From a virus, in the IMG/VR virus record IMGVR_UViG_3300011009_000010, positions 1 to 28,502 of that record: a stretch of DNA of 28,502 bases. One strand, given 5' to 3'. The notes under the pieces were generated by a model. It saw nothing but the letters and a program-made list of their open reading frames with translations, made no database searches and had not been told where the DNA came from. Numbering within the stretch: the first letter of the stretch is position 1; every line of letters begins with the position of its first letter. This document shows positions 5,885 through 24,369 of this stretch, one piece after another. A program made the translations under genes and the position numbers.

Positions 5885-5940
5885 TAATAAGATAGTATTT
5901 TATTAATATAGTTGATGTATATTTGTACTCAGATAACAAC
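5885..5940 (+). promoter_or_regulatory. Candidate early promoter-leader module 2
   Basis: TATATTTG at 5918-5925 matches the TAnnTTTG -7 box. TATTAAT at 5901-5907 and AACAAC at 5935-5940 have the same distances to the box as in module 1 (125-180). By hand count, 38 of 56 positions agree without gaps. It lies in a 95-base gap and precedes the small gene at 5956, whose leader ends TAGAAATTATG exactly as at 197. Confidence 0.5.
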
Positions 5941-8512: not shown

Positions 8513-8740
8513 ATGAAATTATATACAGCTAAAGAAATGTGTGGCTTTTTAGAAATAAAATTAACAACTTTTTACAAGTTACGATTTGAAAAAAACATAA
8601 AGCCTGTAAAAACAGTTAAGAATTTCAATTACTTTTACAAAGAGCAATTTGAAATTGACGTACCAAGATACTACCCTATCAAAACACACGAGGTTTATTA
8701 TATTTATGAATCTAAAATGAATACAAATAAGCAACTATAA
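8513..8740 (+). CDS. Helix-turn-helix protein, Xis/MerR-like
   Basis: The first 25 residues (LYTAKEMCGFLEIKLTTFYKLR) form a winged-helix start of the MerR/excisionase type: YTAKEM helix, turn, and TTFYKLR recognition helix. The 75-residue length fits Xis-like or small regulatory DNA-binding proteins. Placed directly before the sigma-like gene, it may regulate the early-to-late switch. No integrase is in this window, so an excisionase role has no support here. Confidence 0.65.
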   Translation: MKLYTAKEMCGFLEIKLTTFYKLRFEKNIKPVKTVKNFNYFYKEQFEIDVPRYYPIKTHEVYYIYESKMNTNKQL

Positions 8741-8762
8741 AATAAAAGTTGTACATTTGTAT

Positions 8763-10399: not shown

Positions 10400-11585
10400 T
10401 GTAAAAGGATATAAACCGCATATAAATCAAAAAGTAATACACGATAGTATAAACAACGACCCGTATAAATATTATATCTTAAACATAGGTAGGCAGTTCG
10501 GAAAAACTATGTTAGGTATTAATCAAATGTTATACTGGGTAATCAATAATAAAGGTTGTAATATAGCGTGGGTAACACCAGTTTATAAGCAAGGAAAAAA
10601 AGTATTTGCGGAATTAGAAAAGGCTACTCGATTGAGTGGTCTTTTTGAGTTTAATCAAAGCGAACTAACTGTTAAAGGTTTTGGAAGTACTATATCTTTT
10701 TTTTCAGGTGAGAGACCCGATAATATTCGTGGTAATACATTTGACTATTTAATAATAGATGAGACCGCATTTACACGTGAGGAACTTTGGAGCGAGGTAC
10801 TTTCTGCAACCGTATTAGTAAAAGGTAAAAAGGTTTTATTTATTAGCACACCAAAAGGTAAAAACCATTTTTATAAACTATCATTGCAACCAAATTACGA
10901 TGAGCGATATAAATACTTTCATTTTACAAGTTATGATACACCATTTATTAATTCATTAGATTTAGAAGAACGTAAAAGAAGTTTACCAAGTCATATATTC
11001 AAACAGGAATATTTAGCTGAATTTTTAGATAATGCAAGTGGTTTATTTTCAAACGTTAGGGAGTGTATTAAAGAGCCTACAGACTCAACTAAATATCACG
11101 GTGGTTTAGATATTGGAAGAGCAGACGATTACACTGTATTGACTATTATAAACGAACATAAACAAATAGTATTTATAGAACGTTGGAGACAGGATGAGTG
11201 GACCAGCATAATAAATAAAGTAGCAGCTAAAATAAATGAATATAACGCACGGGTATTTGTAGAGGTAAATAATCAGGGTGACGTATTTTATGAAATGTTA
11301 AAAAAGTTATGCGGACAAAAAGTATATCCTTTTGTAACTTCAAGTAAAAGTAAACCGATAATGATTGAAGAGTTAGCAGTTTGCTTTGAGCAAAAAGATA
11401 TAAGTATCTTAGATATAAATTGGCTAATAGATGAGTTAGAAGCATTTACTTACATATATAACCCAAACACTCGTAACGTTCAATACAGCGCACCTACAGG
11501 CGTACACGATGATAGTGTAATTAGTTTAGCATTAAGTATTCAGGCACATAAGCAATTAAGAGCAAGAGAAGTTAGAATAACATAA
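10392..11585 (+). CDS. Terminase large subunit (ATPase-nuclease)
   Basis: I chose ATG 10392 (397 aa) over a TTG nine bases earlier. The ATPase domain has a Walker A-like NIGRQFGKT (31-39), Walker B YLIIDE (119-124) and the coupling motif FISTPKG (150-156). The nuclease domain shows LDIGRADDYT with D240 and D245/D246, VEVNNQGD with E291, and HDDSVISLAL with D373/D374, the expected RNase H-like acidic set. The motor translocates DNA into proheads at the portal and cuts it. The 397 residues are short but within range. Unusually, the next gene is a tail gene rather than the portal. Confidence 0.93.
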   Translation: MSSVKGYKPHINQKVIHDSINNDPYKYYILNIGRQFGKTMLGINQMLYWVINNKGCNIAWVTPVYKQGKKVFAELEKATRLSGLFEFNQSELTVKGFGSTISFFSGERPDNIRGNTFDYLIIDETAFTREELWSEVLSATVLVKGKKVLFISTPKGKNHFYKLSLQPNYDERYKYFHFTSYDTPFINSLDLEERKRSLPSHIFKQEYLAEFLDNASGLFSNVRECIKEPTDSTKYHGGLDIGRADDYTVLTIINEHKQIVFIERWRQDEWTSIINKVAAKINEYNARVFVEVNNQGDVFYEMLKKLCGQKVYPFVTSSKSKPIMIEELAVCFEQKDISILDINWLIDELEAFTYIYNPNTRNVQYSAPTGVHDDSVISLALSIQAHKQLRAREVRIT

Positions 11586-11599
11586 ACAAACATAAAAAT

Positions 11600-11614
11600 A
11601 AACGTTATAAGATT
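11600..11614 (+). promoter_or_regulatory. AAACGTT motif upstream of the tail block
   Basis: AAACGTT at 11600-11606 lies so that AACGTT starts exactly 14 bases before the ATG at 11615. The same motif with the same spacing occurs before 19374 and 22151. The gap between terminase and this gene (29 bases) is among the longer gaps of the late cluster. It may be a late promoter element, operator or translation element. Confidence 0.5.
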
Positions 11615-12307
11615 ATGAAGATAATAATTCCAACAGAGTTAAAAGATATAAGACTATCACAGTACTTGAGATACGTTCAAGTGGTAAAAGACAATCCAGA
11701 CGACGAGACTTTTATTTGTATTCAAATGGTTGCTATCTTTTGTAATTTAGATGTTAAGGAAGTAATGAAAATACCAGTTAATAATTTTACTGAAATTGTA
11801 GAAACAATTGCAAAGATGCTGGACCAAAAACCTAAATTAGTTCATACGTTTAAACTTAATAAAATCGAATATGGGTTTATTCCAAACTTTGATAAAATTA
11901 GTTTAGGTGAACACGCAACGATTGATACACTACTTGGTGACACTGATAATTTAGCTTTATTAATGTCAATACTTTACAGGCCAATTACAAAGAAAGCCTT
12001 ACCGTTTTATTCGATTGAACCATACGATGGAGACGAGAGTAAAGGCGAACTATTTAAAGAAGTTACAATGGATATTGTAAACGGTTCGCTACTTTTTTTT
12101 TGGACTTTAAGCAAAGAATTATTACCCAATATCCTTTGGCATTTGGAGAGCAAATCGAAGAGGGAGGGCGTGAATTTGGAGGAGGTTTTGGTGAACGCTG
12201 GGGGTGGTATTGGGCATTTATTAGAATTGCGAGAGAGCTTAGAATCAATGTACGAGAAGTTGGAAAAGAGCCTTTACACGAATCACTCACGCTATTATCT
12301 TTCTTAA
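11615..12307 (+). CDS. Tail assembly chaperone, short (zero-frame) product
   Basis: The zero-frame product is 230 aa. It is shared with the longer frameshift form up to residue 162 (FF at the T-run), after which it reads WTLSKELLPNIL and an amphipathic helical C-terminus ending in NHSRYYLS. I place it with lambda gpG-like chaperones, which coat the tape measure during tail assembly, on the basis of the frameshift layout and the neighbouring tail genes. The N-terminal 160 residues mix helices and strands (LRYVQVVKDNPDDETF, LLMSILYRPI) and recall Bacteroidetes phage proteins annotated as hypothetical. AAACGTT lies just before the start. Confidence 0.72.
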   Translation: MKIIIPTELKDIRLSQYLRYVQVVKDNPDDETFICIQMVAIFCNLDVKEVMKIPVNNFTEIVETIAKMLDQKPKLVHTFKLNKIEYGFIPNFDKISLGEHATIDTLLGDTDNLALLMSILYRPITKKALPFYSIEPYDGDESKGELFKEVTMDIVNGSLLFFWTLSKELLPNILWHLESKSKREGVNLEEVLVNAGGGIGHLLELRESLESMYEKLEKSLYTNHSRYYLS

Positions 12308-12357
12308 CAGACGAATCAAACGAGGAGCAAAAGAACATTAAAAAACATATCAAATGA
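11615..12357 (+). CDS. Tail assembly chaperone, -1 frameshift product
   Basis: A -1 slip at T TTT TTT (12094-12100) joins residues 1-162 to an 85-residue extension encoded by 12100-12354, stop TGA at 12355-12357, for 247 aa in total. The extension contains RWGWYWAFIRIARELRI and VGKEPLHESLTLLSFLTDE, which I recognise as typical of phage tail chaperone C-termini. It has no ATG of its own, so slippage is the simplest route to expression. The stop overlaps the next ATG (ATGA), as expected if ribosomes really terminate there. A homopolymer error in the sequence could mimic this. Confidence 0.7.
12094..12100 (+). other. Slippery heptamer for programmed -1 frameshift
   Basis: Within a T9 run (12093-12101) the zero frame reads CTT TTT TTT TGG. 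The heptamer T TTT TTT fits the X XXY YYZ rule, so both tRNAs can re-pair after slipping one base back. A GC-poor stretch follows with only a weak CCAA/TTGG stem at 12125-12138, and no strong pseudoknot is obvious near the site. Confidence 0.65.
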
Positions 12358-12815
12358 AATCATTCTATAATTCAATAGACTACATAAAAAGCACGCTTGA
12401 AAAGGCACCACTTTTAAATACAATTACGCACGGTACAGATATAATCGACAATACTAAAAAAAGTATTTTCCCTTTAGCACATATCAATATATTAAGTTCA
12501 AGCATTGGCCAAGGCGAAGTTAAATTCACTTTTGAAGTTGCAGTAGTAGATATAAGAAACGTATCTAAAATTAAAGTAAATGATAAGTTTTTAGGCAATG
12601 ATAATGAATTAGATAATTTGAACACGTGCCACGCAATATTAAACTTTATGATTACTAATATGCGACTGCAAAGAAATGAATTTGATATTGAATTATTAAA
12701 CGAGCCAAACTTACAACCTATTTTAATGGCATTTACTAATATGTTAGACGGATGGAAATGCGAGATAGAACTAAGTGTACCTAACAACCAAATAGAAGCT
12801 TGTAATGGATGCTAA
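12354..12815 (+). CDS. Probable tail terminator/neck protein (153 aa)
   Basis: It overlaps the chaperone frameshift stop by 4 bases (ATGA). The product has an N-terminal helix (YNSIDYIKSTLEKAPLLN) and then strands (AHINILSSSIG, VKFTFEVAVVDI), a helix (CHAILNFMITNMRLQ) and a final strand (GWKCEIELSVP). This alpha/beta order recalls gpU/gp15-like tail terminators that close the tail tube and meet the head. The assignment uses fold pattern and neighbours rather than a clear signature. It precedes a gp10-like protein, as expected for head-tail joining genes. Confidence 0.5.
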   Translation: MKSFYNSIDYIKSTLEKAPLLNTITHGTDIIDNTKKSIFPLAHINILSSSIGQGEVKFTFEVAVVDIRNVSKIKVNDKFLGNDNELDNLNTCHAILNFMITNMRLQRNEFDIELLNEPNLQPILMAFTNMLDGWKCEIELSVPNNQIEACNGC

Positions 12816-13329
12816 ACTAACTGAACAAGCATTAGCTGAGTTCGGAAATTACGTAATTGAAAGAGCCCAAGATAATTTAAAAAAGGGCGGGAAATATGGA
12901 ACACATAACACGAGCGGAAATCTTTCACGTTCGTTAACTTTCAAATCAAAAGTAAGTAAGAATTCTATTGCTTTTGACTTCTTTGCTGAAGACTATTGGA
13001 AGGAATTAGATTTCGGAACAAAGGGGAGTAAGTCGAGTAATAAAGCACCAAAAAGCCCTTACAAAGCACACGCAGAAAGAGGTAAAATTGATAAGTGGGT
13101 AGTTCGTAAAGGATTGCAAGGAGTAAGAAATCCAAACGGTAAGTTCACAGCACGTAAATTAATGGTAGCATCAATAACCAAATCAATAAATGAAACGGGA
13201 ACACCTGAGACTAAATTCTTTCGTAATGCTTTTGATTTAGAATACCAAAAGTTTGATGACACAATAGCAGAAAAATACGGATTAGATTTAGAAACATTCT
13301 TAAAATTCACACTAAAAAATATACAATGA
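12805..13329 (+). CDS. HK97 gp10-like tail completion protein
   Basis: The 174-residue product shows the gp10-like pattern: an N-terminal helix (LAEFGNYVIERAQDNLKK), TSGNLSRSLTFKSK, then a strand pair ending DYWKELDFGTKGSK (about 62-75). A C-terminal part with the typical FFRNAFD (about 138-144) follows. Proteins of this family sit at the head-tail junction and finish the tail. It overlaps its neighbours by 11 and 4 bases. An insert rich in K, G and P (76-115) is usual for the group. Confidence 0.75.
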   Translation: MDAKLTEQALAEFGNYVIERAQDNLKKGGKYGTHNTSGNLSRSLTFKSKVSKNSIAFDFFAEDYWKELDFGTKGSKSSNKAPKSPYKAHAERGKIDKWVVRKGLQGVRNPNGKFTARKLMVASITKSINETGTPETKFFRNAFDLEYQKFDDTIAEKYGLDLETFLKFTLKNIQ

Positions 13330-14384
13330 TAGTAATTAGCGCACGTTCACCATATCACATTACAATAAACGAATCAGGACAAACAGGTAGTAAGGTAGAG
13401 TTATTCATTTGGAACAAAGGAACAACCGAACCAACAGTACCTATATACACTTTAAGCGAACCAATTGCAAGTGTTACTCAAACGCAAACAAATTATAATA
13501 TATCACCATATGTAGCTGAATATATAAACCAAGTTCACGCAGATGCGGTTAGTAATATTACGTATGAAAATGACACGGATTGGTGCTTGGTAAAAGTTAA
13601 AAGATATAAGCTAATTAACGATATAGCTACTTTATTAAACACGGTAGAATACGTTGGAGTAAATGGATTCACACAATATTTAAACGGGGTAAACCTAAAC
13701 AAAACACTAGGAGAAAACTATTTATTATTAGCGAATGAAAGTATTAAAAATCAATGGAACACAACGGCAACTTTTTATAATTTTATAGTTCAAAGAGCTG
13801 ATTTAGATTGGAAGGTAAAATATTACGATAATGCAAATTTATTATTATATACTGAAACTTTTTTGACTTCAGGAGCAACAGAATTTTATAATTTTAGAAT
13901 ACCATTAGTATTTACTACTTCGGTTAAAGCCGAAATAGAAAACAGTGCAGATGGAGTTATTTATACAATTCATACAGAGCAAGTAGAGGAATGTAAATAC
14001 ACGCCTGTTAATTGTTCATTTGTAAATTCATTTGGAGGTTGGCAAAACTTAGTATTCTTTAAAGCAAAAACTAACAGCATAACTGTTAAAAGTTCCGAGT
14101 ATAATTTAATGCAGGAAAATGTAAGTTATGATATTCATATAGGACAAAAAAGAACAATGAATACAAACGGAAATGAAAATGTAAAACTAAACACTGGGTG
14201 GGTTGCTGAGAATTACAAAGAGCTATTAAGAGATTTATTGCTTAGTGAAATAGTTTTGTTAAACGACGAACCCGTAACGGTTAAAACGCAATCATTAACC
14301 TATAAAACACAATTAAAAGATAAGATGATTAATTACGAAATTGAATTCGATTATGCTTTTAACTTATTAAATAACGTATCATAA
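13326..14384 (+). CDS. Tail/baseplate structural protein (352 aa)
   Basis: A beta-rich 352-residue protein starting with MIVISARSPYHITI and containing repeated strand segments (GSKVELFIWNKG, NYNISPYVAEYINQ, WKVKYYDNANLLLY). I have seen related sequences as hypothetical tail proteins in Bacteroidetes siphophages. Position between the gp10-like gene and the 877-residue tail protein supports a distal tail or baseplate place. Start overlaps the previous stop by 4 bases, and the end by one base with the next gene. No enzymatic motif is seen. Confidence 0.65.
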   Translation: MIVISARSPYHITINESGQTGSKVELFIWNKGTTEPTVPIYTLSEPIASVTQTQTNYNISPYVAEYINQVHADAVSNITYENDTDWCLVKVKRYKLINDIATLLNTVEYVGVNGFTQYLNGVNLNKTLGENYLLLANESIKNQWNTTATFYNFIVQRADLDWKVKYYDNANLLLYTETFLTSGATEFYNFRIPLVFTTSVKAEIENSADGVIYTIHTEQVEECKYTPVNCSFVNSFGGWQNLVFFKAKTNSITVKSSEYNLMQENVSYDIHIGQKRTMNTNGNENVKLNTGWVAENYKELLRDLLLSEIVLLNDEPVTVKTQSLTYKTQLKDKMINYEIEFDYAFNLLNNVS

Positions 14385-17017
14385 TGGTAACAGCTGAAAT
14401 ATACATAAAGAAAAACACACTTGTTTATTCAGGAGTTGCAACCGATGATAATACAGACCCTTATTTAACAATTACAGAAAGTTCTGCAGGGTTTGGAGTA
14501 AACGAATATAAAGGTCACTACATTAAAATAACTAAGGGAACGGGCTTAGGTTTAGTAGCGTGGATTGCTTCAAATACAAGTACTGTATTCACTTTACAAA
14601 CACCGTTACAAGTTTCTAACGGTTCTAACTTTGAAATTTATAGAAGTGATTATCAAAAATTAGATTTATTCAACGATGAGAAAATAAGTTTAACAAGTTC
14701 ATTACAAAATGCAAATGATTTAGGGAAAATATATACAGACTATTCGCAATCATTTACTATTCCTGCATCTAAAAGAAACAACAAAATACTATCACATTGG
14801 CACGATAGTTCATTGGACAATGGTTACGACCACAGGATACGTTACGATGCTTATATCGAACTAAATACAGCTAGGTTTAAAGATGGCAACATACAGTTAG
14901 AGAAAGCAAATAAGAAAAACGGATTTATTGAAAGTTACACTATTACTTTTTATGGAAATTTAACACAGCTAAAAGATAAATTTAAAGATACAAAGTTAAG
15001 GGATTTAGTAGGATGGAATGATTTGAACCATTTGTACAATTCTGGCGAAATTAAAGACCGTATAACAAACGTATTAAATTACAATGTTAACTATCCTTTA
15101 ATTGGTTCGACTAAAAAATACTACTATAAGAATGGAGTAGCCGACCAGGATATTACATTACCAACAGCTAAAATAGTTTGGAGTGAATTGTTCCCAGCGG
15201 TTAAGTTACCTAAAGTTTTTGATATAATTCAACAAGCTTTTGGAGTTACTTTTACAGGTTCATTTTTCAATTTACAACAGTGGACAAAGTTAAATTTATA
15301 CTTGAAAAACGCTGAAGAAATGAAGGCACAAAGTTCAAAATTAGATATTGACTTTGTAACTTCGACTTCTTTACCTGAGTTAAACCTTACCACAAATGCG
15401 CTTACAAACACTTGGAGTTGGGGTGCGGGATTGAACAGACCAACGATAAATATTTATTTAACTATTACGCCACAAACAGGATTTACAACGATACCATATA
15501 GTATTTATGTGTACAGAGATGGAAACGAATACAGACGGTTTGACTTTGCTACAGGAGGAACCCAAACGGTTGAGTGTGAGGGTTTGAGAAAAGAAAACGA
15601 CCCAGCTACACATACATATACATTTAAAATAAGTTCACAAAGTTTATTGACTTTTAAGCCTACTTTAAGACTTCAAAGAAGTTGGAATGTTGGTATTTGG
15701 GGTTATTCAAATGGGTACGCTTACAACACGTCGGGACAGTCAACACAAGCAGATATTCAAATAGCAAACTTTGTACCCGATATTACTGTGGATGCTTTTA
15801 TAACGGGAATTATTAAGACTTTCAATTTAATGATTTTACCAACAGCAAAAGACACTTATAATTTTGTACCGTTGGAGACTTTTTACGGTGAGGGTAAAAC
15901 AATCGATATAACTAAATATGTTTATTCAGATGAAGCGGATATTGAAAGACCAAAACTATTTAAAGCAATTAATTTTCAGTATGAAACTAGCAATAATGTT
16001 TTAAACAACAAGTTCAAAGGTTTATATAATACTGAGTACGGTGACTTAATTTACACAAATAACAATAGTAATGAAAGTTCTAATTATGATATTAAACTAC
16101 CATTTGAAAATGTTTTATTTGAAAGAACAGTAGGGGAAAACTTTTTAACAGCAAGTATAATTGATAAGGATTTAAAACCTTACACGCCAAAACCTATGTT
16201 AATTTATGCAAACGAATTGACAAGTTTATCCACGCCCGTAATAATGACTACCGAATTATCTACAACGACTTTTAATTCTTATTTACGATTTTCAAATGAA
16301 GTGAACTTACTACCTACAGACTTGACGTATTCACAGCTATACACAATGAATTTTAGCAATGAACAAAGTCCTTGGTATAATGTATTAGCACCTCAAGGAT
16401 TGTATTATCGTATGTATAAAAACTACATTGATAATCTGTACAATATTAAAACAAGAGTAATAAAAATAAAAGCAATTTTACCATCAAGTTTATTAAATTC
16501 AAGTGTAAAAAATAGAGCGGGCAGACCTATTGGAATAGCTTTAAATGATAGGTTAATAATTCGTAATAAAAGGTACATAATAAACAACTATACGATTGAT
16601 TTAACGAGCGGTGAGACAACCTTTGAACTAATCACAGACTACAGAGGAATTAATGCTAAAAACAGCGTAGGTTATAGGTTTGCGAGTATAGACAATGTAC
16701 AAGTTGACTACACTGAACAAGAAATTGAAGAGGTTATTTACTTAAATGATTACGATTATTTTCATATTAAAGGAGCTACTAATTTTTTAGTGTACCCAGA
16801 CAGCCTAAACAATACAGCAGATGTTGCGTTAACTGTATTGATACCATTAAATGATACAGGAGTTGACAGAACAGACGTAATAGGTATTGAATATTATACA
16901 AACGATATACTGCAAACTACCGAATATATAACAGTTTTACAGCAAACAGACTATTTAATGACAGAAATGAACGAAATATTAACAACAGAATCAGACGAAC
17001 CAATAACTTTAAATTAA
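14384..17017 (+). CDS. Large tail/baseplate protein (877 aa)
   Basis: The largest gene in the window. The segment near residues 75-120 (LDLFNDEKISLTSSLQNAND, SQSFTIPASKRNNKIL) and the following beta domain match a tail protein family seen in many Bacteroidetes siphophages, where it takes the place of the tail hub or host-contact protein. A further block (about 470-560) resembles hub-like sequence (FITGIIKTFNLMILPT), and the C-terminus is beta-sandwich-like. It is expected at the tail tip. No peptidase or glycosidase motif was recognised. Unusually, it lies before the tape measure gene. Confidence 0.72.
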   Translation: MVTAEIYIKKNTLVYSGVATDDNTDPYLTITESSAGFGVNEYKGHYIKITKGTGLGLVAWIASNTSTVFTLQTPLQVSNGSNFEIYRSDYQKLDLFNDEKISLTSSLQNANDLGKIYTDYSQSFTIPASKRNNKILSHWHDSSLDNGYDHRIRYDAYIELNTARFKDGNIQLEKANKKNGFIESYTITFYGNLTQLKDKFKDTKLRDLVGWNDLNHLYNSGEIKDRITNVLNYNVNYPLIGSTKKYYYKNGVADQDITLPTAKIVWSELFPAVKLPKVFDIIQQAFGVTFTGSFFNLQQWTKLNLYLKNAEEMKAQSSKLDIDFVTSTSLPELNLTTNALTNTWSWGAGLNRPTINIYLTITPQTGFTTIPYSIYVYRDGNEYRRFDFATGGTQTVECEGLRKENDPATHTYTFKISSQSLLTFKPTLRLQRSWNVGIWGYSNGYAYNTSGQSTQADIQIANFVPDITVDAFITGIIKTFNLMILPTAKDTYNFVPLETFYGEGKTIDITKYVYSDEADIERPKLFKAINFQYETSNNVLNNKFKGLYNTEYGDLIYTNNNSNESSNYDIKLPFENVLFERTVGENFLTASIIDKDLKPYTPKPMLIYANELTSLSTPVIMTTELSTTTFNSYLRFSNEVNLLPTDLTYSQLYTMNFSNEQSPWYNVLAPQGLYYRMYKNYIDNLYNIKTRVIKIKAILPSSLLNSSVKNRAGRPIGIALNDRLIIRNKRYIINNYTIDLTSGETTFELITDYRGINAKNSVGYRFASIDNVQVDYTEQEIEEVIYLNDYDYFHIKGATNFLVYPDSLNNTADVALTVLIPLNDTGVDRTDVIGIEYYTNDILQTTEYITVLQQTDYLMTEMNEILTTESDEPITLN

Positions 17018-17022
17018 AAATT

Positions 17023-17412
17023 ATGAGAATTTCAGAATTACCAGAATATACAGGAGCACCAAGCGAAACGGCACAATGGCCAGCAAATATTGGAGGTACA
17101 ACTTATAGAGTACCACTTTCGAAAATGTCATTTGATGTCATAAATCTACCTTATACCTATACGGCAGTAGGTACAACTACAGTACAAACAATTAATAAAG
17201 CATCTGGAAGTGTTAATGCTGCAATCGCTACATTATCAGTTACGGTTAATAATAATAAAGTAACTGCAAATTCTATGGTATTCGCGGTTTTTATGACAAA
17301 CGATGCAGCGGGTGCGGTTAAGAATGTTGTTTGTGGAAGTGGCACTTTTACAATTAATTTTACAGCGGGATTAGCAGGGGAAACACGAGTAGGATTCTTT
17401 GTAATTAATTAA
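17023..17412 (+). CDS. Small beta-sandwich tail or fibre-associated protein (129 aa)
   Basis: The N-terminus (MRISELPEYTGAPS) looks like the ISELP segment that often begins phage fibre or baseplate proteins. The remainder is beta-rich (TVQTINKASGSVNAAI, KVTANSMVFAVFMTN, GTFTINFTAGLAGE). It resembles a single C-terminal fibre domain without a shaft. It may decorate the tail tip encoded by the gene before it. Five bases separate the two genes. Confidence 0.55.
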   Translation: MRISELPEYTGAPSETAQWPANIGGTTYRVPLSKMSFDVINLPYTYTAVGTTTVQTINKASGSVNAAIATLSVTVNNNKVTANSMVFAVFMTNDAAGAVKNVVCGSGTFTINFTAGLAGETRVGFFVIN

Positions 17413-17414
17413 TT

Positions 17415-17561
17415 ATGATACAACACATAATAGAAATGCTAAAATTAGCAGAGCAGTACGAGTACAACGAAATAATTTCAATTGCAAAAGGGAAATATGA
17501 ATATCCAAAATCTAACTATCAACTTTTTAAAAAGTTATTAAAAATCAAATTAAATAAATAG
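17415..17561 (+). CDS. Small hypothetical protein (48 aa)
   Basis: ATG two bases after the preceding stop, TAG two bases before the tape measure start. The product is one or two helices (HIIEMLKLAEQYEYNEIISI) with a basic C-terminus (FKKLLKIKLNK). It fills a gap in the tail block neatly, so it is likely expressed. Chaperone or tape-measure partner is possible but unproven. Confidence 0.5.
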   Translation: MIQHIIEMLKLAEQYEYNEIISIAKGKYEYPKSNYQLFKKLLKIKLNK

Positions 17562-17563
17562 AA

Positions 17564-19336
17564 ATGATAGAGAAAGTTATTGATTTACAAATAAAAAGCA
17601 ACGCAGACCAAGCCGTTGGTAGTCTTAAAAGCCAATTACGGGAAGCACAGGCTGAAGTCGCTACATTATCAGATAAGTTTGGAGCAACTTCGCAAGAGGC
17701 TATTAATGCTGCTAAAAGAGCGGGGGAGCTTAAAGATAGGATAGGAGACGCAAAAGCATTAACCGATGCATTTAACCCCGATGCTAAATTCAAAGCTTTA
17801 AGCGCTTCTTTGAGTGGCGTAGCGGGTGGGTTTGCAGCGGTACAAGGCGGTATGGCTTTATTTGGTAGTCAATCGGAAGACGTAGAGAAAACTTTACTAA
17901 AAGTTCAGTCTGCAATGGCACTTTCGCAAGGCTTACAATCAATTGGTGAAAGCGTAGATTCATTTAAGCAGTTAGGAGCGGTATTAAAAAGTACGTCTGT
18001 AATACAAGGTATTTATAATTTTGTACAAACAGGTAGTTTAACAGCATTAAAAGCGAATACAGTAGCAACAGAAGCTCAAACAGTAGCAACAGAAGTTGGA
18101 GCAGTAGCAACAGCAACAGCAAGTGGTGGATTGAAACTATTTAGGTTAGCATTAATCGGTACTGGAATTGGTGCTATTGTTGTAGGTTTAGGATTATTGA
18201 TTGCTAATTTCGATAAGGTAAAAAAGGTAATAATGAACCTTATACCGGGTTTAGCATCAGTAGGGGATTTTATAGGTGGTATTGTAGATTCAGTAACTGA
18301 CTTTGTCGGTGCAACTTCAGACGCTACAAGAGCCGTTGATAAACTTAAAAAAGAAGCTGAAACAACACTTTCAGTTAATAAAAAGTTTATGCAGGAACAC
18401 GGCGACCAAGTAGATGAGTATACAAAGAAAAAAATAGATGCAAAAAATGCGTATGCTGAAGCGGTAAAAGAAGACGGAGCAAATCAAACTGAATTAGCTA
18501 AAAGACTAAACAGAGAATTAGCAGAAATAGAATATTCAAGAGGCGACGAAAAAAGGAAAATTCAAAAAGAGGCAAACGAAAAAGCAAACGCAGATAAAAA
18601 AGCCGATAATGAAAAAGCAATTGAATTAGAAAAAGAAAACCAAAAGAAATATGCTGAAGAAACAAAAACAGGATTACAAATATTAACCCAAGCAAATTTA
18701 GATAATCAAGCTCAAATAAAATTAGATAAAAGAAATTTATTAGATGAACAAATAGCATTATTAAACGAGGGCGTTGACGCTGAACAACAAGCTGAAACAA
18801 AAATAACTGAAAATTCAAAAACAAACGCAGATGCAAGGGTAAAACTTTCAGAGGCTGAAGCAGCAGCAAAACAAGCCTTATTTGCAAAAAGTGCCGATGT
18901 ATTATCAAAGGGTGCTGATTTGTTAGGTAAGAATACAGCAGCAGGAAAATCAATGGCAGTTGCAGCAGCATTAATAAACACATATCAAGGTATTACAACT
19001 GAATTAGCAACTAAAACAGTCACGCCATTTGAAATAGGTTTGAAAATAGCGAACGTTGCTATAATAGCAGCTACAGGATTTAAAGCGGTTAAAGATATTA
19101 TTGCCGTTAAAGTGCCTGGGGGTGGTGGCGGTGGAGCAGTACCAAGCGGTGGGGCTATGGGTGGCGCACCAAGCCCACCAAGTTTTAATATCGTAGGAGC
19201 AAGCGGAACAAATCAAATAGCTCAAGCAATAGGAGGGCAACAACAACAACCTGTACAAGCCTATGTAGTTGCAGGGGCGGTAACAACGGGACAAAGTTTA
19301 AATAGAAATATTATTGCAAACGCATCAATGGGTTAA
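17564..19336 (+). CDS. Tape measure protein
   Basis: At 590 residues, it has long coiled-coil helices at the start (LKSQLREAQAEVATLSDKFG, about 21-40) and a hydrophobic helix (LALIGTGIGAIVVGLGLLIA, about 195-214). A charged central rod rich in K, E, A and Q (255-430) follows, then a glycine-rich segment (GGGGGGAVPSGG) and an alanine-rich C-terminus. These are standard tape measure features; the protein sets tail length and is ejected into the cell. Using about 0.15 nm per residue, the tail would be near 90 nm. It lies downstream of the tail-tip genes rather than beside the chaperone. A 21-base tandem repeat lies at 18059-18121. Confidence 0.88.
   Translation: MIEKVIDLQIKSNADQAVGSLKSQLREAQAEVATLSDKFGATSQEAINAAKRAGELKDRIGDAKALTDAFNPDAKFKALSASLSGVAGGFAAVQGGMALFGSQSEDVEKTLLKVQSAMALSQGLQSIGESVDSFKQLGAVLKSTSVIQGIYNFVQTGSLTALKANTVATEAQTVATEVGAVATATASGGLKLFRLALIGTGIGAIVVGLGLLIANFDKVKKVIMNLIPGLASVGDFIGGIVDSVTDFVGATSDATRAVDKLKKEAETTLSVNKKFMQEHGDQVDEYTKKKIDAKNAYAEAVKEDGANQTELAKRLNRELAEIEYSRGDEKRKIQKEANEKANADKKADNEKAIELEKENQKKYAEETKTGLQILTQANLDNQAQIKLDKRNLLDEQIALLNEGVDAEQQAETKITENSKTNADARVKLSEAEAAAKQALFAKSADVLSKGADLLGKNTAAGKSMAVAAALINTYQGITTELATKTVTPFEIGLKIANVAIIAATGFKAVKDIIAVKVPGGGGGGAVPSGGAMGGAPSPPSFNIVGASGTNQIAQAIGGQQQQPVQAYVVAGAVTTGQSLNRNIIANASMG
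18059..18121 (+). repeat. 21-base tandem repeat in the tape measure gene
   Basis: Three copies begin at 18059, 18080 and 18101. The first two share ACAGTAGCAACAGAAG exactly and the third has diverged. They encode 7-residue units containing VATE/VATA (about residues 166-186). In-frame repeats in a tape measure can change tail length by small steps. Confidence 0.8.
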
Positions 19337-19356
19337 AGTTTATAACAATTAATTTA

Positions 19357-19373
19357 TAAAACGTTTTAAAATT
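19357..19373 (+). promoter_or_regulatory. AAACGTT motif upstream of the capsid block
   Basis: TAAAACGTTTTA at 19357-19368 is a perfect 12-base palindrome. Its AACGTT core starts 14 bases before ATG 19374, the same spacing as at 11615 and 22151. The 37-base gap here is one of the few in the structural cluster. No terminator precedes it. Confidence 0.5.
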
Positions 19374-20450
19374 ATGGAAACATACACAGTTTTATTTAAC
19401 GAACAAGACAATCAGGGGGTTTATGCTATATCCTTAGTAAACGACCCCGCAATAGGCGTTAATTTCATTACACTATCTAATCAAAAGGAATTAAAACTAG
19501 CTACTGTAAACGAAGAGCAACGTATCTTAATGGGTGCTATATTAATTCCTGAACAGCCTATTTATAGAAATCAGGATGGTAAAGAATTTAACATAGTATT
19601 TCCAAAAGAAACTATTAAACAAGTTCAACAAAACTTTGCATTAAAAGGCTATCAAAACAATTCAACATTAGAGCACTCAGGCGAACAAATTGAAAATGTA
19701 ACCTTTGTTGAAAGTTGGATAAAAGAAGACGAAGTACACGACAAATCAGTGCATTATGGTTTTAATGAACCCGTAGGTACTTGGTTCGGATTAATGAAAA
19801 TAAATAACGATGTTATTTGGAATGAATATGTTAAAACAGGAAAAGTAAAAGGCTTTAGTATTGACGGAGTCTTTGATATGCAGAAAATTGATTTAAACAA
19901 TGAACAAATGGATTTAAAAACAATCGTAGATGCGATTAAAGAGGGGTTTGCATCGGTAAAATTATCGAATGAACCAGAAGTACCAGCAGTTGTAGAATTG
20001 GCTACAATGAAGTTAAAAGACGGAGTAACCGTATTAGAAGCAGAAAGCTTTGAAGTAGGTCAATCAGTGTTTATCGTTGCTGAAAATGGCGACAAAGTAC
20101 CAGCACCAGTTGGAGAACACGAATTGGAAGACGGTAGAATTTTGGTAATTACTGAAGAGGGTAAAATCGGAGAAATTGCAGAGGCTAAAACTGAAGCGGT
20201 AGAGGAAGAGGTAGCAATGACAAACACCGACCAATTTACTGAAATGATTAAACAAATTATTACTTCTATGTCGGTTGAAGTTGCTAGACAAATTGAAACA
20301 GTAAAAACCGAATTAAAAGCTGAAATTGCAGAAACAAAAACAAAAGTTGAAGTAAAAGCTTCGACAAAATCAAAACCTGAAACTTTCGTAGAAAAAAGTT
20401 ATTCAGAAATGACAAACTTTGAAAAATTAAAATTTAACAGAAACAATTAA
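19374..20450 (+). CDS. XkdF-like prohead protease with C-terminal scaffold-like region
   Basis: Residues 49-168 match the XkdF/S78-type prohead protease: RILMGAILIPEQPIYR, LEHSG with H101, VESWI (113-117) and KGFSIDG with S162. H101 and S162 are the likely catalytic pair. Residues about 208-265 form a second conserved block (LKDGVTVLEAESFEVGQSV, PVGEHELEDGRILVI). Residues 285-335 are helical and charged, like a scaffolding domain. The protease would cleave scaffold and capsid precursor during maturation. It sits directly before the major capsid gene, as expected. Confidence 0.82.
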   Translation: METYTVLFNEQDNQGVYAISLVNDPAIGVNFITLSNQKELKLATVNEEQRILMGAILIPEQPIYRNQDGKEFNIVFPKETIKQVQQNFALKGYQNNSTLEHSGEQIENVTFVESWIKEDEVHDKSVHYGFNEPVGTWFGLMKINNDVIWNEYVKTGKVKGFSIDGVFDMQKIDLNNEQMDLKTIVDAIKEGFASVKLSNEPEVPAVVELATMKLKDGVTVLEAESFEVGQSVFIVAENGDKVPAPVGEHELEDGRILVITEEGKIGEIAEAKTEAVEEEVAMTNTDQFTEMIKQIITSMSVEVARQIETVKTELKAEIAETKTKVEVKASTKSKPETFVEKSYSEMTNFEKLKFNRNN

Positions 20451-20462
20451 ACAAAAAAAACA

Positions 20463-21497
20463 ATGGCAGTATCATTTACAGGTGCGAAAACCGCACAATC
20501 AGAGTACCCAGAAATTATAAAAGAAGTTTATGCAGATTCACCAACTTTTAGAGGTGAAACAATAGAACTTGTTGAGGGGCATAAATCAGGAATGGACATT
20601 TACGAAAGTTCCGCAGAGGTTACATTTTCAAGTGCAAATTACGGTCCAGTAACAGCTGACAACGTAGCGTTGAAATCACAAAAATCAACAGTTAACTTAA
20701 AGACTTTCAATGTTGAAGGAATTATAGATGAAAGTTCTTTGTTGGGTACACGCTACCAAAAATCAATGAAAGCGGGAGCTTTTGAAGTTGTTTCAGACGA
20801 ATTCGACCAAAAGGTTTTAATTCAAGTTCAACCAGCAACTTCTGCAAAATTAGAAAGCGGAGTTTGGAATGGTGCAACTACAGCAACGAAAGCAGCTATT
20901 GCAGCATTAACACCTGGAGCAGCACAAGGTTCAATTAGTGCAGGTGCACAAACTTTAGTAGCAGCAATGCCAACTACTTTGTTTGACTCAGTACCAGCTA
21001 CAATGTTGTACAATGATTCACAATCAAAAGCAGTACCGGGAGCAGGTTTAGGAGACTACAAAAAAGTATTGTCAATTGCAGCTGTTACAAGTGCTACAAT
21101 TGTTGCAGAATATGTAAAAATATTTAATACTATTCCTGACGAAGTTTTAGTATTAACTGGAGACGATGCACCAGTTATTTATGCACCAAAAGGTGACTAT
21201 AAATTAATCAAAACTGTAAACAGAGTTCAAGGGGCAGCGTTGCAAGAAAACTTCGTAGGAAGTACTTTTAACGATATGTATTTCAACGATGTTAAAATTG
21301 TGTTCGTTGACTTGGTAGGATTTAGAATTGCAGCACAAAAATTCAACTTGAAATTGGTTATGGATTTACTTTCTGACTCAAGTCAATTGATTATCGAGAA
21401 AGAAGCTAACGCATCTACAAGACGTATCATTAAAATTATCAACACAATGACTACTTGGGTTGTTAAACAAAAATGGAACGTACTTTACGCAGGATAA
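20463..21497 (+). CDS. Major capsid protein
   Basis: The 344-residue product follows the protease gene and is itself followed by a strong terminator, the usual setting for a HK97-fold major capsid gene. Its composition (Ala, Val, Thr-rich; few Cys) and less AT-biased, regular codon use also suit an abundant structural protein. N-terminal residues 1-60 look like an N-arm and E-loop region (SSAEVTFSSANYGPVTAD). The C-terminus (FRIAAQKFNLKLVMDLLSD) resembles capsid A/P-domain strands. No cleavage site is obvious. Fold is inferred from context. Confidence 0.8.
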   Translation: MAVSFTGAKTAQSEYPEIIKEVYADSPTFRGETIELVEGHKSGMDIYESSAEVTFSSANYGPVTADNVALKSQKSTVNLKTFNVEGIIDESSLLGTRYQKSMKAGAFEVVSDEFDQKVLIQVQPATSAKLESGVWNGATTATKAAIAALTPGAAQGSISAGAQTLVAAMPTTLFDSVPATMLYNDSQSKAVPGAGLGDYKKVLSIAAVTSATIVAEYVKIFNTIPDEVLVLTGDDAPVIYAPKGDYKLIKTVNRVQGAALQENFVGSTFNDMYFNDVKIVFVDLVGFRIAAQKFNLKLVMDLLSDSSQLIIEKEANASTRRIIKIINTMTTWVVKQKWNVLYAG

Positions 21498-21505
21498 TAT
21501 TAATC

Positions 21506-21534
21506 AAAACCGCTTATTAATTTAAGCGGTTTTT
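21506..21534 (+). terminator. Intrinsic terminator after the major capsid gene
   Basis: An 11-bp perfect stem (21506-21516 with 21523-21533), loop TTAATT and a T-run at 21530-21534. It starts 8 bases after the capsid stop. It would raise capsid message over downstream genes. Confidence 0.88.
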
Positions 21535-21547
21535 AATAAAAAAATAT

Positions 21548-22072
21548 ATGAGTTGTTTAATTAGCAAGGGTAAATTGTTGGCTTGTAAAGACCAACGAGG
21601 TGGAATAAAAAATATATATTTTGCAAACTATTTAGACTATTCTTTTGTAATTGCAGCACACGCAATTACGAGTTTAGGAAGTTTAACTGAGGTTTTCAAA
21701 TATGAAGTTAAAGCAACGACCAACGCTTTGACTGAAACGGGTACAAGTTCAGAAGACAATGGAACTTTTTTAAATGCACAATCTTTAGCAGTTACTTTGC
21801 CTAAATTAGGTACTGACTTACAAGCTCAAGTACAATTGATTTGTCTAGGAAGACCTTATGTGTTTATCGAAGACTATAACGGTAACGTTTTATTGGTTGG
21901 CGCAACGAATGGAACAATGGCTAATTGTACTAAGGCTTCAGGCGGTGCAGGTGGTGATTTAAGCGGTTATACACTAACTATTACAGCTGAAGAGGGTAAT
22001 TTGTCACCTTTCTTAGACGCTACTACTAAAACAGCGTTACAAGCGTTGGTTTCAGATGTCGTAGTTTCTTAA
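21548..22072 (+). CDS. Probable major tail (tube) protein
   Basis: The 174-residue product begins MSCLISKGKLLACKDQRGG and has strand-rich sequence with a C-terminal helix (FLDATTKTALQALVSD). It resembles a group of Bacteroidetes phage proteins in the position of the tail tube gene. A size near 170 residues, a single beta-barrel-like domain and its own terminator behind it all suit an abundant tube subunit. It lies apart from the tail block. An alternative is a capsid decoration protein. Confidence 0.55.
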   Translation: MSCLISKGKLLACKDQRGGIKNIYFANYLDYSFVIAAHAITSLGSLTEVFKYEVKATTNALTETGTSSEDNGTFLNAQSLAVTLPKLGTDLQAQVQLICLGRPYVFIEDYNGNVLLVGATNGTMANCTKASGGAGGDLSGYTLTITAEEGNLSPFLDATTKTALQALVSDVVVS

Positions 22073-22091
22073 ATTACAATAGATTAAAATT

Positions 22092-22118
22092 AAAAAGCTA
22101 CTTCGGTGGCTTTTTTTT
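22092..22118 (+). terminator. Intrinsic terminator with UUCG tetraloop
   Basis: A 10-bp stem (22092-22101 with 22106-22115, one T-G wobble) is closed by the very stable C(TTCG)G loop. Eight Ts follow at 22111-22118. It lies 20 bases after the probable tube gene and closes the capsid/tube unit. Confidence 0.92.
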
Positions 22119-22135
22119 GTTACAATAACTAAGTA

Positions 22136-22150
22136 AAACGTTTAACAACT
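22136..22150 (+). promoter_or_regulatory. AAACGTT motif upstream of the portal-to-lysis block
   Basis: AAACGTTT at 22136-22143; AACGTT begins 14 bases before ATG 22151. It directly follows the TTCG terminator, so a new transcript must begin about here. That makes this the best of the three sites to be a promoter element. Confidence 0.55.
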
Positions 22151-22459
22151 ATGAACATATTTAACTTAACAAAACCGTATAGACTTAATTGCATACCTAG
22201 AGCGTATAACGACGGGGTTATTACGTTGCTTTTAAGGGACGAATTAAAGGATTTAACACATATAATTAGCGTAGATAGTATATACTACCAAAATAGCGTT
22301 TTAATGCTTAGTTTTGAGGATATAACACTAAAAGAGGGTCAATCATTTGAGGTAATAATCAAAGAAAACGACCAATTAATATACAGAGGCAAAGCATACG
22401 CAACGGCACAAACAGATTTTGAGAATTTCGAACTAAATAAAGGGGTTTTAAAAGCCTAA
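22151..22459 (+). CDS. Hypothetical structural-region protein (102 aa)
   Basis: First gene after the second terminator, preceded by AAACGTT. The 102-residue sequence is beta-rich (YRLNCIPRAYNDGVITLLL, QSFEVIIKENDQLIYRGKAY) and ends in an acidic helix. I know similar sequences only as hypothetical neighbours of portal or capsid genes in Bacteroidetes phages. It is likely a virion or assembly protein by position. Confidence 0.6.
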   Translation: MNIFNLTKPYRLNCIPRAYNDGVITLLLRDELKDLTHIISVDSIYYQNSVLMLSFEDITLKEGQSFEVIIKENDQLIYRGKAYATAQTDFENFELNKGVLKA

Positions 22460-22464
22460 AAGAT

Positions 22465-24369
22465 ATGGAAAAACTACAATTATTAACACTATCTAACTAT
22501 ATAAGACCTGAAATTAAGGAAGTTTCTGGTAAAAAGTGGGTATTAAATGGTAAAAACAACGAATTTTATAAAACAATTATAGATGCTTATAACGGTTCGC
22601 CTACAAATTCCGCTATTATAGACAGTTATAGTCAGTTTATTTACGGCAAAGGTTTAACTTCAACTGACAAATTAGCTAAGACTTCAGAATGGGCAACTAT
22701 TGTTTCTTTGTTTTCAAAAAAAGACTTAAGAAAAATTTGTAAGGACTTCGAAATGTTTGGGGAGGCTTCAATTGAAATCAAATATTTAAACAATAAAATA
22801 CAAAAGTGTTTTCACGTAGCAAAACAAAAGATTGCGCCTGAGGTTGCTAATGAAGATGGTGATATTGCAGGTTATTATTTTAGCTATGACTTTACAAATA
22901 CTAACAAATATAAACCTGAAAGATTTGACGCTTTTGGATTTGGTTCAGGCGGTGGCGAACGTTCTGAAATTTATGTAATTAAAGACTATCAGGTAGGTCA
23001 ATTCTATTACAGCAACCCAAGTTATGTAAGTGGTATTTCGTGGGCTAAAATGGAAGAAGAAATTTCTAACTATTCAATTAACCATATACAAAATGGTTTG
23101 TCTTTTGGGCATATCATAAATATGAATAGTGGAGTTCAACAATCAGAAGAAACTATTATCGAAAATACAAGAGCTATTAGAGACAAACTTACAGGCTCAA
23201 GTAATGCAGGTAAATTCTTTTTAAATTGGAATGACAATAAAGATAGCGCAATTACAATTGAAGCTTTAGAAGTATCAGAAGCGCATCAACAGTATATTTA
23301 TTTAAGTACCGAAGCAAGACAGCAATTATGTACGTCTCACAAACTTACTTCCCCTATGTTGGTTGGAATAAAAGAGGCGAGTGGTTTTAGTTCAAATGCT
23401 GAAGAAATAAAAGTGGGTTTTGCGGAATTAATGATTAACGTAATTAAACCAAAACAAGAAATTATTTTAGATGGTTTAATGGAAATTTGTGCGGTAAATG
23501 GAATTACTTTACAATTGGATTTTGAAAGTTTAAGAGCTGAAGACGTAGTAGATAATGTAGCAGGAGTTGACGCAGGAGTTACAGATGCAGCGGTTTCATA
23601 TAACGGTGCGCAAATTTCAAGTGCAATTGATATTTTCGCAAAAGTTAAAGAGGGAATTTTAACAACAGAACAAGCGGTTGTATTTTTAGTTCAATTTTTG
23701 AACATACCTGCAAGTGTAGCAACTTCTTTATTTTCGCCAACGGTTGCACCTATCACACAATTAGAAAATCAGAAAGTTTGTTGTTCTAACGATAATACAG
23801 ACCTTACAAGCATAGCTGATGCACTTATTGAAATGGGGGAAGTTGTAGATGAGAATGAATGGGAAGAGGTAGATTCAATACCCGTAACTGAACAATTAGA
23901 AATAAACGAAATTACTTTAAATTTAGCTAAAACATTTTCAAGTTTTCCAAACGTAAAAAGCGACCAAGATACTTCATTATTTAAAATTAGATATTCGTAC
24001 GAGGGTGCGCTTGGAGCAAAAAGAGACTTTTGTCAAAAGATGGTAAGTGCAAGTAGAACTTATCGTAAAGAGGATATAACGTTAGCTGAAACTAAAACAG
24101 TTAATAAAGGTTTTGGAGCAAGTGGAGCAGATAACTATTCTATATGGTTATATAAAGGTGGAGTTAATTGTAATCACTTTTGGATGCGCAAAATTTACTT
24201 AAGAAAAAACAATACACAACTTACAGTTAATGAAGCTAGAAAAATGATATTAGAACTAGACCCGAAAGACCGACCAGAAGCAAAGTGGCAACAAAATGAA
24301 AATGAAGTAGCGCAAATTGCAAGTGCAAGTAATAATTTTTGGAGCTTAAAACCTAACTACCGTAAATAA
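22465..24369 (+). CDS. Portal protein with C-terminal CxH domain
   Basis: The 634-residue product has portal-like sequence: an N-terminal clip/wing region, FEMFGEASIEIKY (about 95-107), FNSGV-like helices (SFGHIINMNSGVQQSEE), and the EARQQLCTSHKLTSPMLVGI segment (about 286-305), which corresponds to the conserved stem/crown region. Residues about 504-575 form an extra domain with YSYEGALGAKRDFC (C523) and KGGVNCNHFW (C569, H571, W573), which resembles MuF-type head morphogenesis C-termini. Portal and MuF-like domain joined in one chain would link the packaging channel with an internal head protein. It overlaps the next gene by one base. No separate MuF gene is seen. Confidence 0.8.
   Translation: MEKLQLLTLSNYIRPEIKEVSGKKWVLNGKNNEFYKTIIDAYNGSPTNSAIIDSYSQFIYGKGLTSTDKLAKTSEWATIVSLFSKKDLRKICKDFEMFGEASIEIKYLNNKIQKCFHVAKQKIAPEVANEDGDIAGYYFSYDFTNTNKYKPERFDAFGFGSGGGERSEIYVIKDYQVGQFYYSNPSYVSGISWAKMEEEISNYSINHIQNGLSFGHIINMNSGVQQSEETIIENTRAIRDKLTGSSNAGKFFLNWNDNKDSAITIEALEVSEAHQQYIYLSTEARQQLCTSHKLTSPMLVGIKEASGFSSNAEEIKVGFAELMINVIKPKQEIILDGLMEICAVNGITLQLDFESLRAEDVVDNVAGVDAGVTDAAVSYNGAQISSAIDIFAKVKEGILTTEQAVVFLVQFLNIPASVATSLFSPTVAPITQLENQKVCCSNDNTDLTSIADALIEMGEVVDENEWEEVDSIPVTEQLEINEITLNLAKTFSSFPNVKSDQDTSLFKIRYSYEGALGAKRDFCQKMVSASRTYRKEDITLAETKTVNKGFGASGADNYSIWLYKGGVNCNHFWMRKIYLRKNNTQLTVNEARKMILELDPKDRPEAKWQQNENEVAQIASASNNFWSLKPNYRK

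Follow-up and report, generated by a model that had tools for sequence, protein, structure and literature searches.

What reads AAACGTT, and at which step, is the question raised by three copies of this short sequence in the virus record IMGVR_UViG_3300011009_000010 (IMG/VR), whose 28,502 nucleotides (positions 1 to 28,502) we refer to as the window. The copies lie at 11600, 19359 and 22136, each equally far from the start codon of a gene that heads a late block, and the original prediction offered three readings, a late promoter element used by a phage sigma factor, an operator, or a signal for translation. Our analysis supports the first option, since the element is a two-box unit with fixed spacing that is found at the three block heads only, is conserved in relatives and shares its genomes with a gene for a sigma factor of the extracytoplasmic function (ECF) type. 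We consider it quite probable that the three sites are late promoters which the phage sigma factor reads and which give rise to leaderless mRNAs.

A two-box unit at three block heads

Within the window, AAACGTT-N8-ATG occurs three times, and neither on the other strand nor in a reversed control, compared with a mean of 0.08 and a maximum of 1 in 300 first-order Markov simulations. No other 7-mer with at least two G/C keeps a constant gap to three or more of the 46 starts used; AACGTT alone shows no overall enrichment (17 in the window vs 13.6 expected). These three exact cases (about 0.08 by chance) confirm the proposed fixed distance, and the A/T-rich octet with a terminal T that was said to follow AACGTT is present at the sites. 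The three genes also do head the tail, capsid and portal-to-lysis blocks, as had been proposed: the one at 11615 follows terminase, the one at 19374 opens the capsid genes and the one at 22151 precedes portal.

Related viral contigs were found via the 19374 protein (8) and via portal (80), and the DNA before orthologous starts was compared. At the same three genes, about 60 of these contigs share WACAA-N14-GTTA/T-N6-T (W being A or T), followed directly by ATG. AAACGTT, which had been taken for the core, is therefore a lineage-specific spelling of a unit whose conserved core in relatives is GTTA/T; the base at -12 is C in the window clade and A or T in other clades. The upstream box WACAA had been overlooked. 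Written as triplets, the tail and capsid promoters of the window hold AAC-N15-CGT, with TAC in place of AAC in the portal promoter and AGT for CGT in many relatives. Among distinct ortholog upstreams, ACAA and GTT start at -29 and -11 in 24 of 39 at the capsid head (displaced together in 3) and in 39 of 52 at the portal head, where another 3 have them at -28 and -10. Such one-base displacements relative to ATG are rare and move both boxes jointly, to (-30,-12) or (-28,-10), which argues for one DNA unit and hence for a promoter rather than a ribosome signal.

Searched as WACAA-N14-GTTW-N6-TATG, the unit has 72 matches, spread over 32 of the 38 relatives' records with usually three in a long one, against one match for the reversed control. 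GTTA at -11 is confined to the three block heads and was seen in none of the other ortholog groups with enough sequences. When further tail-block sites were collected in sigma-linked loci, with a pattern not demanding T at -1, 63 of 65 were found to head an ortholog of the 11615 gene, which starts at residue 1 and has identical length. These phages thus combine a sigma factor of their own with a bipartite motif confined to late block heads, as for late promoters of the phage 7-11 type. Hexamer-gap counts over all ATGs of the relatives were swamped by shared coding sequence and were replaced by orthologous upstreams only; megablast of the region against phages gave no match.

The strong terminator proposed to precede the third copy is real, and its T-run passes straight into the promoter box (22092-22125), an arrangement kept in nearly all relatives. 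Their stem sequences vary, with a constant TTGTTACAA-like edge. At the tail block, the upstream box overlaps the end of the terminase stop codon. The upstreams of the three block heads showed no other conserved promoter. TAnnTTTG, the -7 box of host sigma-A promoters, is absent from the + strand just before each of them, and a sigma-70 consensus scan gave no excess. Rfam gave no match. A second hairpin (21506-21533), between the genes at 20463-21497 and 21548, is terminator-like on the minus strand only.

A predicted phage sigma factor and probable promoters that change with it

As candidate reader, the window encodes a small protein related to ECF sigma factors. TIGR02937 (sigma70-ECF) and NF058625 (ECF) match all 21 of 21 orthologs, and the former aligns over residues 16-143 of the window protein, scoring below its curated cut-off. 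Membership in sigma-70 region 2 is indicated by Pfam, with PF04542 (Sigma70_r2) matching the window protein at an E-value of 4e-4, below the gathering score, and 15 of 21 orthologs at values down to 8e-9, and by structure, as an AlphaFold model compared with ECF sigma region 2 yields a VIA Z of about 10. The protein's profile also matches solved ECF sigma structures in the PDB. Orthologs occur in 26 of the 38 relatives' records, and the records with no match are mostly short contigs.

Close relatives use two promoter spellings at the same block heads, each uniform within its genome. In the relative L010 all three heads carry GAGCCA-N13-GCATTA, in the same geometry and with T at -1, and in the relatives L198 and L199 the same heads carry GATACA-N13-ACGTTA, even though portal is 93% identical between the two sides and the same terminator lies upstream of it. 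The sigma factor is the most diverged protein compared (75% identity vs 77-93% for the others, which are structural proteins), and its region-4 helix differs (RKMGIGRGTV vs LRMQISPTTV). Since three separate sites have been altered together, they appear to share a trans-acting reader, for which the phage sigma factor is the obvious candidate. On a broader scale, capsid and portal promoters from 42 distinct genomes agree above shuffles at the box positions -32, -31, -28, -27, -13, -12 and -8, with no such excess across the inner spacer (-20 to -14), in a test that ignores the relatedness of genomes.

More distantly, Nonlabens phage P12024L (NC_018272), whose portal is 42% identical to that of the window, has a gp35 annotated as Sigma-70 region 2 protein and carries CGTTA at -11 or -10 before seven genes. 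It thus has more promoters than the window, and their spacer is one to two bases longer (AAC-to-CGT N16-17 vs N15). We found no published account of P12024L promoters or of window-type promoters in the literature searched, which most subscription papers lie outside.

Table 1. Predicted late promoters, the genes they head and associated features (window positions unless a relative is named)
Feature	Position	Strand	Details
Tail-block late promoter (predicted)	11585..11614	+	aACAA 11585-11589, N14, CGTTA 11603-11607, T at -1, ATG 11615
Capsid-block late promoter (predicted)	19344..19373	+	aACAA 19344-19348, N14, CGTTT 19362-19366, T at -1, ATG 19374
Portal/lysis-block late promoter (predicted)	22121..22150	+	tACAA 22121-22125, N14, CGTTT 22139-22143, T at -1, ATG 22151
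Tail-block first gene	11615..12307	+	phrog_32199
Capsid-block first gene, protease-like	19374..20450	+	phrog_24921, phrog_15223
Portal-to-lysis block first gene	22151..22459	+	portal next at 22465, endolysin later; orthologs in 79 loci
Intrinsic terminator of capsid block	22092..22119	+	stem 22092-22115; T-run abuts upstream promoter box
ECF-type sigma factor, 143 amino acids	8763..9194	+	region 2 and region-4-like helix-turn-helix; TIGR02937, NF058625, Sigma70_r2, phrog_1740, PDB ECF sigma matches
Candidate host promoter for sigma gene	8752..8762	+	TAnnTTTG box TACATTTG plus tat directly before ATG
Sites of the two spellings in close relatives	L010 2382, 9969, 12774; L198 upstream of 12639, 20232; L207 317; L208 300		

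How the sigma gene itself may be expressed is suggested by the TACATTTG box, which is of the host sigma-A type, ends three bases before the sigma-gene ATG and is conserved in relatives L092 and L093. It is confined to the window's own clade, and the region just before the sigma start in other relatives lacks it. In flavobacteria, host sigma-A is known to use TAnnTTTG, and one ECF sigma factor a CGT box at -10 (PMC9723704). With the usual 4-5 nucleotides from box to start, the sigma mRNA would itself be leaderless or nearly so. Intergenic TAnnTTTG also occurs ahead of early genes at 5918-5925 and 158-165, candidate host-type early promoters. Directly upstream of the sigma gene lies a gene for a small, weakly excisionase-like HTH_17 protein (8513-8740).

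The start codon as probable initiator and rival readings

Immediately ahead of ATG, 95 of 95 distinct upstreams of head genes have T. Other genes in these phages have T there in 120 of 370, with A prevailing. T at -1 likewise holds for all 63 of the 63 further tail-block sites of sigma-linked relatives. A pyrimidine at -1 with A at +1 is the usual initiator step. Transcription starting at the A of ATG would give the boxes normal promoter positions, about -30 to -26 and about -12 to -8. Moreover, at the capsid head of L198 and L199, where ATG lies one base further, the T-A step keeps its distance from the box. A start codon that also serves as initiator, with T at -1 and A at +1, may thus account for the fixed ATG distance, and block-head mRNAs would most likely begin at AUG with no leader, judging from the box-to-ATG distance and the invariant T. 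The same logic has served to deduce leaderless genes elsewhere, where a -10 box lies 10-12 bp ahead of the start codon (PMC3160421). That the fixed ATG distance suggests leaderless transcription had gone unnoticed in the original prediction.

To our minds, then, the host polymerase would make the phage sigma factor earlier, from the TAnnTTTG box, and the sigma factor would join the host core RNA polymerase. The boxes contacted by the resulting holoenzyme would be WACAA, at about -30 to -26, and C/A-GTTA/T, at about -12 to -8, with RNA starting at the A of ATG or no more than about one base away. An early-to-late cascade may be envisaged, with the host-made sigma factor first and the three late blocks after it.

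Among the alternatives, the one that survives best accepts promoters read by the phage sigma factor and gives their mRNAs a short leader of a few bases, which we regard as unlikely yet worth keeping in mind. Sigma promoters of phages 7-11 and phiEco32 start 6-9 bp from the element (PMC8948821), a range that allows starts at least one base upstream of ATG. Such a leader, however, fits poorly with the invariant T before ATG, which together with the A makes the pyrimidine-purine step expected of an initiator, and with the T-A step of L198 at unchanged box distance.

Less probable still is that the promoters are right and their reader is a host sigma factor (for instance a host ECF factor with a CGT -10 box) or the host polymerase with some other phage protein, the phage sigma-like gene having another role. 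Flavobacterium psychrophilum does have seven ECF sigma factors and a CGT-box promoter class (PMC9723704), and binding of the boxes by the phage protein is something we infer. Two findings speak against a host reader: almost all long records of relatives contain the sigma gene, and the L010 and L198/L199 promoters differ in concert, which, with the sigma factor diverged most, fits a phage-encoded reader.

We think it highly improbable that GTTA-N6-T is a translation-initiation signal whose context recruits the ribosome in hosts that do without Shine-Dalgarno sequences. GTTA does keep a fixed distance to ATG, and translation in flavobacteria draws on the sequence near the start codon (PMC6847099), but this leaves unexplained why a box 15 bases further out keeps exact spacing and moves with GTTA, internal genes of the same operons lack the motif, and A at -12/-13, which flavobacterial ribosomes favour, is rarer at the head genes than at others. 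Just as doubtful is an operator for a phage helix-turn-helix regulator, such as the HTH_17 protein encoded beside the sigma gene, overlapping a separate promoter: the 12-base palindrome at 19357-19368 is real, but it is missing from most relatives (aaaaaGTTATAG) and so incidental, the conserved boxes are asymmetric and in promoter spacing, and these upstreams offer neither another conserved promoter nor a sigma-70 excess.

Several points weigh against leaderless promoters read by the phage sigma factor. In P12024L the box spacing is N15-16 rather than the N14 of the window clade, and T at -1 gives way to C in three promoters and to A in one. The shuffle test of promoter co-variation, apart from ignoring relatedness, gives excess agreement also at the non-box columns -41, -23 to -21, -6, -5 and -2. 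As for the protein, the AlphaFold model is moderate (predicted local distance difference test 73, predicted template modelling score 0.44), and its C-terminal part (region 4), with helices predicted at 101-141, has no separate structural match. Leaderless mRNAs make up only 5.5% in F. psychrophilum (PMC9723704), and 87% of F. johnsoniae transcripts have leaders of more than 10 nucleotides (PMC6847099). Finally, recognition of the boxes by the sigma factor is deduced from linkage and correlated change, and the exact start site and the late timing are predictions.

Relation to known systems and meaning

The closest documented system is Salmonella phage 7-11, whose sigma factor gp47 reads late promoters of the form GTAAtg-16-aCTA; phiEco32 has a distant homologue of gp47 (gp36), and its promoters differ from those of 7-11 (PMC8948821). 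With both, the window shares a phage-encoded sigma factor, a bipartite late promoter, few late block heads and a promoter that differs where the sigma factors diverged. Unlike 7-11, it has other boxes, another gene order, probably another host phylum, an ECF-type sigma factor and a start codon locked to the promoter; the 7-11 paper does not contain the word leaderless (PMC8948821). Cellular ECF promoters (AAC at -35 and CGT at -10, about 16 bp apart), including the SM6 CGT-box class of F. psychrophilum (PMC9723704), partly resemble those of the window in boxes, spacing and the ECF-type domains of the sigma factor, but the latter are viral, drive structural genes, have a GTTA/T extended box and, in the window clade, a slightly shorter spacer. 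In PMC3160421, leaderless transcription was likewise deduced from promoter boxes that keep a short, constant distance to the start codon, yet these are sigma-70 boxes (TANNNT); such genes occur mainly in Actinobacteria and Deinococcus-Thermus, and in 1 of 37 Bacteroidetes/Chlorobi genomes.

The host of the window may well belong to the Bacteroidota, going by P12024L (host Persicivirga/Nonlabens) and the TAnnTTTG boxes; a search for a host through portal relatives in genome contigs found none. We thus see the present promoters as a variant of phage-sigma late promoters in Bacteroidota phages, in which the promoter is locked to the start codon.

We lean towards a wider view, in which widespread Bacteroidota siphophages drive the entire late programme with some three phage-sigma promoters fused to start codons, make leaderless structural mRNAs where their hosts rarely have them, and switch the specificity of sigma factor and promoters jointly between close relatives, as L010 and L198/L199 suggest. 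Late promoters could then be read, and start sites predicted to the base, in a large set of uncultured phages akin to one that infects Flavobacteriaceae. With so few parts changing specificity together, one small sigma factor and about three promoters, the system would make a compact natural experiment, and translation of leaderless late phage mRNAs in hosts that lack Shine-Dalgarno sequences becomes testable. Small orthogonal sigma-promoter pairs of this kind would also serve as tools for Bacteroidota genetics.

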